This document shows positions 11,927-17,037 of a stretch of DNA of 64,000 nucleotides, piece by piece (the stretch's first letter is position 1; the number at the start of each line of letters is the position of its first letter). Both the position numbers and the translations under genes were made by a program. The stretch spans positions 1 through 64,000 of the forward strand of contig NZ_JYJG01000093.1 in NCBI RefSeq assembly GCF_000955955.1, written 5' to 3'. This DNA comes from Lentzea aerocolonigenes. Lineage in GTDB: Bacteria; Actinomycetota; Actinomycetes; Mycobacteriales; Pseudonocardiaceae. Under the pieces are notes generated by a model. The model searched no databases. It had not been told where the DNA came from and was given only the letters and a program-made list of their open reading frames with translations.

Positions 11927-11959
11927 AAAATCGCTGGCGCGGGGTGGTTGTATGTAGAT
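11927..11959 (+). promoter_or_regulatory. Promoter-like block of the first Y-like RNA
   Basis: This block (AAATCGCTGG, then GTGGTTGTAT) is nearly identical to the one before the second RNA at 12107-12138 and ends at the predicted 5' stem. GTGGTTGTATGTAGAT can supply a -10 (TATGTA at 11951-11956). Duplication together with the RNA suggests a transcription start at about 11958-11960. Confidence 0.55.
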
Positions 11960-12079
11960 GCGCCCGGTGCGCAGCAGAGGGTTACTTCTGGTATCTCAGG
12001 TTCGACTCCTGAGGCCGGCTCCGGCCGGTCTCGCTCACCCCGGTGGGCACGTCACCTTCTGCGACTTGAACTCGGGCGC
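11960..12079 (+). ncRNA. Bacterial Y RNA candidate 1 (T-arm-like domain)
   Basis: About 120 nt. The ends pair perfectly (GCGCCCG 11960-11966 with CGGGCGC 12073-12079). Inside is an asymmetric internal loop (GTGCGCA opposite GACTTGAACT), then a second helix GCAGAGGGT (11974-11982) with ACCTTCTGC (12054-12062, one G-U). The apical part holds a tRNA T-arm look-alike: CTCAGG and CCTGAG (11995-12000, 12008-12013) around the 7-nt loop TTCGACT, then a GGCCG/CGGCC hairpin (12013-12026) and a third hairpin (12033-12048). The paired ends, conserved internal loop and tRNA-like head match bacterial Y RNAs, which tether Ro60 to nucleases such as PNPase. It precedes the Ro60 gene. Confidence 0.8.
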
Positions 12080-12106
12080 CCACAGAACTCCACATCGGCC
12101 GGAATT

Positions 12107-12138
12107 AAACCGCTGGACCGGCGTGGTTGTATAGAAAT
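12107..12138 (+). promoter_or_regulatory. Promoter-like block of the second Y-like RNA
   Basis: AAACCGCTGG then GTGGTTGTAT, with TATAGA at 12130-12135 as the best -10. It copies the block at 11927-11959 with few changes, while the sequence between RNA 1 and this block is not conserved. No such block precedes RNA 3. Confidence 0.55.
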
Positions 12139-12212
12139 CGCACCCGGTGCGAAGCCAACGGTTACTTCGCCTCGAAACCGCAAAACCGTTGGCGACTTTG
12201 ATCTCGGGAGCG
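12139..12212 (+). ncRNA. Bacterial Y RNA candidate 2 (short, no tRNA-like head)
   Basis: About 74 nt. The outer helix CGC-A-CCCG (12139-12146) pairs with CGGG-A-GCG (12205-12212), seven pairs with one A-A mismatch. An internal loop GTGCGAA/GACTTTGATCT has the same sequence as in the other two RNAs. A perfect 10-bp helix follows, GCCAACGGTT (12154-12163) with AACCGTTGGC (12184-12193), closed by a 20-nt loop containing a TTCG/CGAA mini-stem. It keeps the presumptive Ro60-binding stem but lacks the T-arm and D-arm modules, so it is a minimal Y RNA. Confidence 0.75.
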
Positions 12213-12220
12213 CACAACTT

Positions 12221-12367
12221 CACACGTGTCCGGTGCGAAGCAGAGGGTTACTTCCACTGTTAATGGGCGGGTTGCGGGTTCGAATCCCGTCGGCCGGGAA
12301 ACCGGTCGTAGCTCAATCTGGCAGAGCAGCTGCGTACCTTCCGCGACCTTGATCTCGGACACGTGTG
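12221..12367 (+). ncRNA. Bacterial Y RNA candidate 3 with circularly permuted tRNA-like domain
   Basis: About 147 nt. The ends form a perfect 12-bp helix (CACACGTGTCCG 12221-12232 with 12356-12367). After the conserved internal loop comes helix GCAGAGGGT (12240-12248) with ACCTTCCGC (12336-12344). The head is a permuted tRNA: T-arm stem 12274-12278/12286-12290 with loop TTCGAAT; then a 7-bp acceptor-like stem (12291-12297 with 12302-12308) closed by a GAAA tetraloop; then TA (positions 8-9); D-arm GCTC/GAGC (12311-12314, 12324-12327) with loop AATCTGGCA holding the GG pair; then A26. The Y stem occupies the place of the anticodon arm. This is the hallmark of YrlA-type Y RNAs. It starts only 8 nt after RNA 2 and has no promoter block of its own. 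Confidence 0.85.
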
Positions 12368-12376
12368 GGGTTTGTG

Positions 12377-12411
12377 GGCTCCCCTTTCTTTTGTCCTGAG
12401 GGGGAAGAGCC
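12377..12411 (+). promoter_or_regulatory. Possible hairpin over the rsr ribosome binding site
   Basis: GGCTC (12377-12381) can pair with GAGCC (12407-12411) and CCC (12382-12384) with GGG (12402-12404), enclosing the GGGGAAGAG ribosome site of the Ro60 gene. The pairing is short and could be chance in this GC-rich stretch. Confidence 0.35.
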
Positions 12412-12412
12412 G

Positions 12413-13993
12413 ATGGCGAAGTTCAACATCTTCCGCGCACGTCCGGCGGGCACCAGCCCGGTCGCCACGGCGCCGGTGCCGACCGTCCGCACCTACGAGG
12501 GCGGCGGCGGCTACGTCCGCGACGCGAAGTCCGAACTGTTCCTGCTCGCCGTGTCGAACATGGGCGGCGAGGACACCTTCTACGAGTCCGGTGGCCGGCG
12601 CGACACCCGGTTCGCCCAGCTCGTGCACGCCGCCGCGCTCGCGGATCCCGAGTGGACCGCGCGCTTGCTGAAGTGGCTGCGCGGCGAGGCGAACATGCGC
12701 ACCGCGTCGCTCGTCGGCGCGGCCGAGTTCGTGCTCGCGCGCCTGCTCGCCGAGTCCGGCGCGGGCGTCACCAACCGGGCCGTCATCGACTCCGTGCTGC
12801 AGCGCGCCGACGAACCGGGCGAACTGCTCGCCTACTGGACCGCCATGAACGGCCGGCGCGTGCCGAAGCCGATCAAGCGCGGCATCGCCGACGCGGTGCG
12901 GCGGCTCTACGACGAGCGCGCGATCCTCAAGTGGGACAGCGACTCGCGCGGCTTCCGCATGGCCGACGTGCTGAACCTCGTGCACCCCTCGCCCGCCGCC
13001 GACTGGCAGGGCTCGCTGTTCCAGTACGTGCTGGACCGGCGCCGGGACGCTGAAGTCGCGGTTCCTTCCGATCTGCGCGTGATCGCGGCACGGCGTGAGC
13101 TCATGTCGTGGCCGGTCGAGGAGCGGCGTGCGCTCTTCGGGCGTCCTGACGCGGCGGACGTGCTCCGGCGTGCGGGGATGACGTGGGAGGCGGTGGCCGG
13201 ATGGCTGCAGGGTCCGCTCACCCGTGAGGTGTGGGAGGCGCTCGCGCCGTCGATGGGTTACATGGCAGCGCTCCGCAACCTCCGCAACTTCGACGAGGCA
13301 GGCATGTCCGACGAGGTCGCGGCGGCTGTCGCGGCACGACTGGCCGACCCCGGCCAGGTCGCGCGCTCGCGGCAGTTCCCGTTCCGCTTCCTGTCGGCGT
13401 ACGAGGCGGCACCGAGCCTGCGCTGGGGCCACTCCCTGGACCAGGCGCTGCAGGCGTCGCTGAGCAGCCTGCCCGCACTGCCGGGCCGGTCGCTGATCCT
13501 CGTCGACACCTCGGCGTCGATGACGCAGACCACGATCTCGGCGCGGTCGAAGGTCACCCCGGCCAAGGCCGCGGCGGTCTTCGGTGTCGCGCTGGGAGCC
13601 AAGGGCGAGCAGGTCGACGTCGTCGGGTTCGCGACCGGCACGTTCCAGCACCACGTCAAGCCGGGCGCGTCGGTCATCCGCGAGGTCGACCGGTTCCTGA
13701 AGCGGATCGGTGAGGTCGGGCACGGCACCGACATCGCCGGATCGCTGCAGCGGACCTACCGAGGTCACGACCGCGTGTTCATCATCTCGGACATGCAGAC
13801 GGTGTCCGGGCCGGGCATCTCGGACCTGGTGCCGCGGCACGTGCCGATCTACGGCTTCAACCTGGGCGGATACCAGCAGGCGGCGTTCGCGACCGGCAAG
13901 GCCAACCGCCACGAGTTCGGTGGCCTGTCCGACGCTACGTTCAGGATGGTTCCGCTTCTCGAAGCAGGTCAGAACGCGGACTGGCCGTTCTGA
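12413..13993 (+). CDS. rsr: Ro60/TROVE domain RNA-binding protein (Rsr)
   Basis: 526 aa. Residues ~30-340 are the TROVE HEAT-repeat ring (GGGYVRDAKSELFLLAVSNMG, then FYESGGRRDTRFAQLVHAAA), and ~350-526 a von Willebrand A domain with the MIDAS start LILVDTSASMT (DxSxS). Ro60 binds misfolded RNA 3' ends in its ring and Y RNAs on its surface; in Deinococcus it works with PNPase. I chose ATG 12413 over an in-frame ATG 48 nt earlier because GGGGAAGAG lies 6-12 nt upstream and the earlier start falls inside RNA 3. Three Y-like RNAs lie immediately upstream; no rtcB ligase gene, a frequent neighbour elsewhere, is nearby. A perfect hairpin follows. Confidence 0.93.
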   Translation: MAKFNIFRARPAGTSPVATAPVPTVRTYEGGGGYVRDAKSELFLLAVSNMGGEDTFYESGGRRDTRFAQLVHAAALADPEWTARLLKWLRGEANMRTASLVGAAEFVLARLLAESGAGVTNRAVIDSVLQRADEPGELLAYWTAMNGRRVPKPIKRGIADAVRRLYDERAILKWDSDSRGFRMADVLNLVHPSPAADWQGSLFQYVLDRRRDAEVAVPSDLRVIAARRELMSWPVEERRALFGRPDAADVLRRAGMTWEAVAGWLQGPLTREVWEALAPSMGYMAALRNLRNFDEAGMSDEVAAAVAARLADPGQVARSRQFPFRFLSAYEAAPSLRWGHSLDQALQASLSSLPALPGRSLILVDTSASMTQTTISARSKVTPAKAAAVFGVALGAKGEQVDVVGFATGTFQHHVKPGASVIREVDRFLKRIGEVGHGTDIAGSLQRTYRGHDRVFIISDMQTVSGPGISDLVPRHVPIYGFNLGGYQQAAFATGKANRHEFGGLSDATFRMVPLLEAGQNADWPF

Positions 13994-16431: not shown

Positions 16432-16812
16432 TCAGTCGTTGGTCAGCTCGGCGTACTTGGCCGCCGTGAGCAGGTTCTCCGCCGACTCCACGCGAACCTT
16501 GAACAGCCAGCCGGCGCCGTACGGGTCGTTGTTGATGACGGCCGGGTCGTCGACGACCGCACCGTTGACCTCGATCACCTCGCCGGTCACCGGGGAGAAC
16601 AGGTCGCTGACGGACTTGGTGCTCTCGAGCTCGCCGCAGACGGCGTTCGAGACGACCTTGGCCCCGACCTCGGGGAGCTGGACGAAGACGATGTCGCCGA
16701 GAGCGTCCGCGGCGTACTCGGTGATTCCGCAGGTCAGCGGGTCCTGGGTACCCGGCGTCCAGTCGACCCACTCGTGCTCGACGGTGTAGAGCAGGTTCTC
16801 GGGGAACTCCAC
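16432..16812 (-). CDS. gcvH: Glycine cleavage system H protein
   Basis: 126 aa lipoyl carrier of the glycine cleavage complex. YTVEHEWVDW opens the fold and ESTKSVSDLFSPVTGEV holds the lipoylated Lys. GTG start at 16812 with an AGAGGAG ribosome site 5 nt upstream. First gene of a two-gene operon with sdaA, behind a single glycine riboswitch. gcvP and gcvT are not in this window. Confidence 0.95.
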   Translation of the reverse strand: MEFPENLLYTVEHEWVDWTPGTQDPLTCGITEYAADALGDIVFVQLPEVGAKVVSNAVCGELESTKSVSDLFSPVTGEVIEVNGAVVDDPAVINNDPYGAGWLFKVRVESAENLLTAAKYAELTND

Positions 16813-16877
16813 GGCGACTCCTCTGGCTGTGACGGCTCGGTCAGGTGACTACCCCCTCCGCCGTGCAGAGTTGCCTA

Positions 16878-16963
16878 CCCCGAGCGGTCTTGCTGCCTGA
16901 GAGTGTGCGGGAGCTTGCCCCTTCGGCGCCTCGACTGCTTCGTCGAGGTCTCTCCCACTCGGG
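16878..16963 (-). promoter_or_regulatory. Glycine riboswitch (single aptamer) upstream of gcvH-sdaA
   Basis: On the minus strand the P1 arms CCCGAG (16963-16958) and CTCGGGG (16884-16878) close an 86-nt domain. Inside are the conserved gcvT-type blocks GGGAGAGACC, GCGCCGAAGGGGCAA and CTCTCAGGCA. These are the glycine-binding core. Only one aptamer is visible, not the usual tandem pair. An expression platform of ~65 nt leads to the gcvH ribosome site; glycine is expected to turn the operon on. Confidence 0.9.
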
Positions 16964-17037
16964 TTTCGGTGCCGCCCTGGTTGGACCAAAGGGCACCACG
17001 GCCGATGTTCAGTTTTGAGTCCTTCGAGACCAGGCGA

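Follow-up and report, generated by a model that had tools for sequence, protein, structure and literature searches.

Which RNAs are encoded directly upstream of the Ro60 gene of Lentzea aerocolonigenes, and what is the function of the heads that they carry? An earlier note on this DNA proposed that three Y-like RNAs precede the Ro60 gene (rsr). In the window, which is the whole stretch of 64,000 nucleotides that was analyzed, three RNAs are indeed present at the positions that it gave, and the outer stems that it quoted are found in the sequence, with an A-A mismatch within the Y2 stem. The locus is organized as follows.

Organization of the locus

11933-11953 (+): promoter-like box GCTGGCGCGGGGTGGTTGTAT, upstream of Y1 (a sequence pattern with a putative promoter function)
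11960-12079 (+): Y1, a Y stem with a three-arm tRNA-like head, without an anticodon arm
12112-12132 (+): second copy of the promoter-like box, upstream of Y2 (also a sequence pattern with a putative promoter function)
12139-12212 (+): Y2, a short Y RNA with a Y stem and second helix only
12221-12367 (+): Y3, a Y stem bearing what is very probably a complete circularly permuted tRNA
12413-13993 (+): rsr, Ro60 homologue with TROVE and von Willebrand A (VWA) domains (ATG at 12413, stop at 13993)

The pattern for the promoter-like box was built from the copies at 11933 and 12112, so these two match each other by construction, and there is no further copy elsewhere in the window at ≤3 mismatches (0.02 expected). 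The GTGGTT core of the box is seen upstream of Y1 and Y2 across the genus rows. An attempt to assign a sigma factor to the box gave no candidate. A hairpin that would hide the rsr ribosome binding site (12376-12411) is predicted, yet its stability is that of shuffled sequences (z scores of 0.00 and -1.07), and it was rejected. Elsewhere in the window, a glycine riboswitch (RF00504, 64.8 bits) is located at 16875-16967 on the minus strand, upstream of a GcvH gene (16432-16812, minus strand).

The neighboring protein and its homologues

Rsr has Pfam matches to TROVE (3.1e-16, residues 270 to 335 only) and VWA (4.8e-6), and in the PDB its sequence matches 9kop/9l5y at 8e-31 and, weakly, 1yvp (0.008). 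An AlphaFold model of modest confidence (pLDDT of 62) has 13 PDB fold matches at E ≤0.001, all of which are Ro60/TROVE proteins, including Deinococcus Rsr (2nvo, E of 1.2e-7), Xenopus Ro (1yvp), and the Ro60 of Thermus phage phiLo (9l5y), with TM-scores that are low (0.32 to 0.39). Based on the domains and on the sequence and fold matches in the PDB, we conclude that the neighbor is a Ro60 homologue; it has the TROVE and VWA domains and the Ro60 fold that define membership in the Ro60/Rsr family.

Several rsr genes of the genus are interrupted or duplicated. In two Lentzea relatives, Rsr has an in-frame insert of ~387 amino acids at residue ~288 (L019:340-1500, minus strand; the same place in L020/L026, genome G003). 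The L019 insert has a LAGLIDADG match (3.3e-12) and an intein-splicing match (1e-7, just under the cut-off), and it is a predicted intein within a Ro60 gene. The rsr gene is interrupted by the insert in genomes G003 and G007 and by an apparent frameshift at codon ~220 in G013, while G019 and G022 have just rsr fragments with an internal stop (L022, L023, and L027 are these plus G013); a 41-bit Y match is still present in L022. Genome G002 has a second rsr (L024, 62 to 63% identity) with two Y elements; in one of these the anticodon loop is CTGCAAA, and the D arm looks Glu-like by eye. Three Lentzea genomes also encode remoter Rsr-like paralogues (L028, L029, and L030; 42 to 47% identity) with a 5' Y motif just ahead of the match, and model R1 finds no match in these three loci at E ≤1e-4.

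Conservation and covariation of the three RNAs

We searched 60 relatives and found an orthologous rsr in 20 of the 24 same-genus (Lentzea) genomes, including that of L. aerocolonigenes itself. The three-RNA array is present in all 20 of these, and one has a fourth copy. In alignments of 20 rows each, 96.8% (Y1), 92.5% (Y2), and 98.2% (Y3) of cells are paired, compared with 29 to 49% when the partner strand is slid. The earlier note had argued from covarying helices and had staked its claim on compensatory changes in relatives. Such changes are present, with five pairs changed on both sides in each of the three RNAs (20 rows each), and the covariation score of each RNA is greater than that of all 500 shuffles. 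For Y2, the 20 cells with double changes were matched by 0 of 500 shuffles, although its number of double-changed pairs was equalled in 52 of 500; the outermost pair fails to form in 10 of the 20 Y2 rows. The z scores for folding energy are -3.18 (Y1), -2.30 (Y2), and -3.25 (Y3).

The RNAs have the conserved stem pairing the 5' and 3' ends that is characteristic of Y RNAs, and they adjoin the Ro60 gene in 20 of 20 genus loci. This adjacency, the covarying structure, and the identification of the neighbor as a Ro60 homologue bear out the identity proposed earlier, and Y1, Y2, and Y3 are almost certainly Y RNAs. The number of RNAs at the locus, which the earlier note had singled out as worth characterizing, is not special. 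Beyond the genus, one or more Y elements precede rsr in 38 of 41 loci (L040 to L080, part of a set of 50) and in 28 of 29 loci (L081 to L109) according to a single motif scan, a few of these loci being duplicates of one another or of the genus set, and where the scan found any, there were 1 to 5 Y elements per actinobacterial rsr locus. Y1 to Y3 are best read as Y RNAs of a known type, and it is the head of Y3 that appears to be new.

Two kinds of tRNA-like head

One of the three RNAs had been thought to lack a tRNA-like head, and this holds for Y2, which has a short variable loop in its place. However, the heads of Y1 and Y3 are of two different kinds. The arms of the Y1 head are the following.

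11996-12012 (+): T arm
12013-12026 (+): acceptor-like hairpin
12033-12048 (+): D arm

Permuted D, T, and acceptor arms, which are a feature of YrlA, are present in both Y1 and Y3, and Y1 is the second-best R1 match within its own genome (80.8 bits). The covariance-model check suggested in the earlier note did not assign the array to an Rfam family, since none reaches its cut-off there: the YrlA family RF02553 has a cut-off of 69 bits, and its scores are 39.6 bits for Y3 and 18.4 bits for Y1. This cut-off is not reached in the window, in the loci of 20 relatives, or in 10 phage loci. No Rfam Y RNA is found at the gathering score in the loci of the 20 relatives or the 10 phage loci. Other Y elements have Glu-like or Gln-like D arms, and those of L097, L098, L104, and L105 have heads like a class II tRNA-Leu, long variable arm included (tRNA types in both cases recognized by eye).

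What distinguishes Y3, and was overlooked in the earlier note, is its complete anticodon arm. The parts of Y3 are the following.

12221-12232 with 12356-12367 (+): Y stem
12240-12248 with 12336-12344 (+): second helix
12254-12266 (+): anticodon hairpin, tRNA positions 29 to 41
12257-12263 (+): 7-nt loop CTGTTAA (anticodon GTT at 12259-12261)
12267-12268 (+): positions 42 and 43, paired with 12329-12330 (27'-28'), which completes the anticodon stem
12274-12290 (+): T arm (100% of cells paired, 39 rows)
12291-12308 (+): acceptor stem, closed by a loop and without a CCA end (98.3% of cells paired, 39 rows)
12311-12327 (+): D arm (four pairs invariant, 39 rows; position 26 is 12328)

From 5' to 3', the head consists of the hairpin of positions 29 to 41 (3 bp and a 7-nt loop), positions 42 and 43, five bases, the T arm, the loop-capped acceptor stem, UA, the D arm, a single base, and a dinucleotide that pairs with 42 and 43; that is, it contains an anticodon arm, a variable loop, a T arm, a loop-capped acceptor stem, and a D arm.

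The structure was evaluated in alignment A5, which holds 39 of 43 nonredundant sequences (L067, L082:991, L083:3604, and L194 were omitted because of short ends or another D-arm type). Candidates for A5 were selected on local pairing of the anticodon hairpin (≥4 of 5) and not on the pairs 27'-43 or 28'-42. Pair 42-28' is GC in 26 and AU in 13, and pair 43-27' is GC in 30 and CG in 9, so each is paired in 39 of 39 aligned relatives, while the local alternative at position 43 fails in 9. Because both pairs are held in all 39, we conclude that the anticodon stem is complete and that the Y stem interrupts the tRNA between positions 28 and 29. Over the whole of Y3, 96.8% of cells are paired and 25 of 36 pairs are changed on both sides, with a covariation score of 0.494, compared with 0.147 for shuffled and ≤0.092 for slid alignments (39 rows). 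In the acceptor stem, 6 of 7 pairs are changed on both sides, the innermost pair having letters in just 7 of 39 rows. When no structure is supplied, RNAalifold recovers both Y helices, the anticodon hairpin, the T arm, the acceptor stem, and the D arm, but it gives position 42 a local partner in place of 28'. Single-sequence folding was dropped as proof of a cloverleaf, since the lowest-energy fold of Y3 alone is a different one (-62.1 kcal/mol, versus -44.2 kcal/mol for the structure as drawn and -55.3 kcal/mol with free helices added), a result that weighs against the structure as drawn. It is very probable that Y3 carries a complete circularly permuted tRNA.

It is very improbable that Y3 is instead a circularly permuted tRNA gene whose transcript matures into a functional tRNA. 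In permuted tRNA genes the 3' half precedes the 5' half, and the gene order of Y3 is the same. However, its acceptor is closed by a short loop and has no CCA, the extra helix at 28/29 covaries as a Y stem, and the copies adjoin Ro60. ARAGORN, a tool that is not designed for permuted genes, finds 0 tRNA genes in the window, and there is no Rfam tRNA match in the window.

Passages of PMC8394870 and PMC11472068 indicate that permuted tRNA mimicry by YrlA (RF02553; PDB 6CU1) is already known, and YrlA is like Y3 in its linkage to Ro60, its terminal stem, and its permuted D, T, and acceptor arms. In contrast to Y3, the Rfam consensus of YrlA has no anticodon loop, and the stem that closes its head runs into the Y stem. 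A literature search that stopped short of the key Y RNA papers did not turn up, in the parts of sources that it covered, any Y RNA described as having an anticodon arm, and such a description may be in print.

The loops of Y heads follow tRNA rules

Of 347 pooled Y elements, 114 have a full anticodon stem. These 114 heads were chosen by complete anticodon-stem pairing, and the letters of the loop played no part in the choice. The pooled set used 150 aligned of 190 R1 matches, and the input to the R1 search was 84 loci (40 of 59 loci, 38 viral loci, L021 to L023, and L028 to L030). Repeats were removed (L018, L068, L084, L168, L196, L198 to L204, L228 to L230, and L235), some stay (e.g., L059 and L164), and merging these gives 107 head signatures. 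R1 matches that span just positions ~32 to 108 resemble tandem real tRNAs and were excluded, together with the genome tallies containing them.

U33, A38, and a purine at position 37 are each found in 110 of the 114 heads. Furthermore, base 37 follows base 36: U36 goes with A37, G36 with G37, C36 with A37, and A36 with A37. This 36-37 rule, which was framed after part of the data had been seen and is evaluated by permutations that ignore shared ancestry, is true of 108 of 114 heads compared with 73.5 when position 36 is permuted (P of ~2e-5), of 38 of 43 distinct loops compared with 20.8 (P of ~2e-5), and of 101 of 107 distinct head signatures compared with 67.2 (P of ~2e-5). Without L211, which is possibly tandem tRNAs, the count is 107 of 113. 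As a yardstick, the rule is true of 44 of 52 distinct real tRNA loops in the organism's own genome. The heads have 32 kinds of anticodon and 0 stop anticodons; U36 is over-represented (62 of 114). An A34 anticodon, seldom used by bacterial tRNAs, occurs in 3 of 114 (AGG twice and ATG once).

The Y3 loop, CTGTTAA, is identical to the tRNA-Asn loop of the same genome. Exact identity with own-genome tRNA loops, which were taken from 61 distinct ARAGORN predictions of which several are doubtful, is found for 54 of 93 elements compared with 44.2 expected (P of 0.0003), but for distinct loops it is marginal (13 of 35 compared with 9.9; P of 0.08). Exact 7-mer identity was therefore set aside as the main statistic, and we rely mainly on the 36-37 rule.

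The presence of tRNA rules in the loop suggests that some factor reads it as an anticodon loop, and the loop is probably under selection as such. One rather unlikely, though substantial, alternative is that these are ordinary YrlA-type Y RNAs in which the head just tethers PNPase or shapes the RNP, the U-turn and purine 37 being kept for stability while the triplet drifts neutrally. The heads of YrlA are known permuted tRNA mimics, as noted above. However, a free triplet predicts that base 37 is independent of base 36, and the 108 heads that obey the rule, against 73.5 by permutation, do not fit this prediction.

The enzymes that make m1G37, t6A37, and i6A37 act on G36-G37, U36-A37-A38, and A36-A37-A38, respectively. 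The loop contexts of the Y heads fit enzymes that modify position 37, as does the frequency of U36, and the head could serve enzymes that modify anticodon loops as a substrate or sensor, or it could enter the ribosome as an unchargeable tRNA specific for one codon. A passage of PMC8394870 reports that YrlA is modified by DusA and TruB. Both of these roles are improbable, since they leave the turnover of the triplet (see below) unexplained and the acceptor end is a closed hairpin; in a ribosome, moreover, the Y stem at 28/29 would presumably be bulky.

Turnover of the anticodon within Lentzea

When changes are counted on an rsr tree for the 20 genus loci, position 34 has 9, position 35 has 7, and position 36 has 4, which makes the anticodon the fastest-changing triplet among the 155 columns of Y3. 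The other Y3 columns have a mean of 0.96 changes, and third codon positions of rsr have 2.14. U33 and A38 have 0 changes in Lentzea. At least 11 loop switches are required, and two loops, CTCCTAA and CTTTTAA, are each found in species that are not sisters, which reflects either convergence or exchange between species. Between L002 and L003, which are sister loci, 5 of the 7 loop bases are different, as are 10 of the 145 other columns.

These rates bear on neutral drift in a YrlA-type RNA in both directions. A triplet in the D loop is nearly as fast as the anticodon (18 changes compared with 20), and two spacer stretches have means of 2.36 and 1.97 changes per column, the most variable columns in them having 9 and 8; since the D loop is nearly as fast, rate alone is no proof of diversifying selection. 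In contrast, the difference at 5 of 7 loop bases between sister loci argues against drift.

The loop rules could also have been inherited rather than selected in place, if the head was repeatedly copied from tRNA genes by capture or gene conversion. Consistent with copying, head types are varied (D arms resembling those of Glu or Gln tRNAs, and class II heads resembling tRNA-Leu), and the element of L041 has a T arm, acceptor, and anticodon like those of tRNA-Asn (all by eye). Within Lentzea, however, the anticodon stem TTCCA/TGGG is constant in 20 of 20 loci while the loop has 7 forms, so that copying of the whole anticodon arm is unlikely there and conversion tracts of ~7 nt would be needed. 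Capture can be the source of older head changes, but as an account of the loop rules we consider copying improbable.

Y elements beside phage Ro60 genes

The viral collection of 38 Rsr loci is the source of 29 of the 114 full heads, and we examined 10 phages out of 44 records with a Ro60 match. R1 matches adjoin a Ro-like gene in six actinophages (Satis, GiJojo, VanLee, Atuin, Neville, and BRock), and in five of the six, VanLee being the exception, other annotated tRNAs lie in the stretch shown. The anticodon hairpin is readable in the R1 matches of VanLee, Satis, and BRock (the last two by eye). Anticodon-bearing R1 matches are also present in Xanthomonas phage Olaya (99.4 bits) and Caulobacter phage CcrColossus (89.5 and 84.6 bits), and Brevundimonas phage Kabachok has weaker R1 matches (51 bits). 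Thermus phage phiLo, one of the four non-actinobacterial phages examined, has no R1 match. Three annotated tRNAs overlap R1 matches.

L259:2204-2275: Gordonia phage VanLee, annotated tRNA-Arg(tct)
L258:2269-2343: Streptomyces phage GiJojo, annotated tRNA-Arg(cct) (R1 match of 50.7 bits, a candidate Y RNA)
L266:1637-1704: Caulobacter phage CcrColossus, annotated tRNA-Gln

None of these three features has an Rfam tRNA match at the gathering score, and "tRNA" annotations beside phage Ro60 genes can be Y RNAs.

According to a passage of PMC10264068, phage tRNAs are proposed to have evolved anticodon loops that resist anticodon nucleases. The likeness to Y3 is in loops shaped, as proposed there, by anticodon nucleases, and some phage Y RNAs sit among tRNA genes; the difference is that the phage tRNAs described in that passage are mutated and resistant, whereas the Y3 loop is that of the host tRNA-Asn and its head is unchargeable.

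Proposed function of the Y3 head

The best overall explanation for Y3, to which we assign a probability of roughly 0.35, is that it is a Ro60-tethered tRNA mimic that works as a bait or sensor. The terminal stem of Y1, Y2, and Y3 would bind the neighboring Ro60 (we infer both transcription and binding), and on this Ro60-bound stem Y3 would display a complete tRNA mimic, anticodon arm included. The head, being permuted and closed by a loop, should not be chargeable with an amino acid, and this suggests a role as Ro60-tethered bait or sensor. Enzymes that recognize anticodon loops would be presented with a correct one and might thereby be diverted from real tRNAs; the likeliest of these enzymes are anticodon nucleases from phages, from competitors, or from the cell's own toxin systems. 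The cut or bound RNA would then be passed to Ro60, and to PNPase if that is tethered as in Deinococcus, and rapid anticodon turnover would track shifting targets. Many Y loops are host-type tRNA loops (the 54 of 93 described above, versus 44.2 expected), as bait should be.

The structure, its complete anticodon stem, the tRNA-like rules of the loop, and the diversity of anticodons are indicated by comparison of sequences, while a role of the Y3 head specifically as nuclease bait is a tentative proposal, somewhat less probable than the broader bait-or-sensor reading. It has a precedent in a passage of PMC7790460, whose authors suggest that YrlA is a competitive inhibitor of an anticodon nuclease, and TROVE proteins are assigned to RNA repair in phages in a passage of PMC7824862.

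Known Ro60 systems resemble this locus in part. In the Deinococcus Rsr/Y RNA/PNPase complex (RYPER), Rsr likewise adjoins a Y RNA, and Deinococcus Rsr (2nvo) is among the fold matches; here, in contrast, there are three RNAs with different heads. As of 2020, tethering of PNPase by a Y RNA had been studied in Deinococcus only, according to a passage of PMC7790460. The Salmonella rsr-yrlBA-rtcBA RNA repair operon, described in part of the same paper, similarly combines Rsr with more than one Y RNA, but neither RtcB nor RtcA is among the four window proteins that were scanned here.

It is possible, if unlikely on present evidence, that actinobacteria and several phages have Ro60 particles showing complete, unchargeable tRNA mimics, with anticodons that diversify as nuclease bait in an arms race. 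If this were true, these mimics would form a new class of regulatory RNA, and Ro60 would gain a new role. The loop grammar is kept while the anticodon switches, and this narrows the question of Ro60/Y head function to factors that read anticodon loops. The 32 natural anticodon variants could be used for direct tests, including tests of whether the head acts in tRNA biology as a decoy or sensor.
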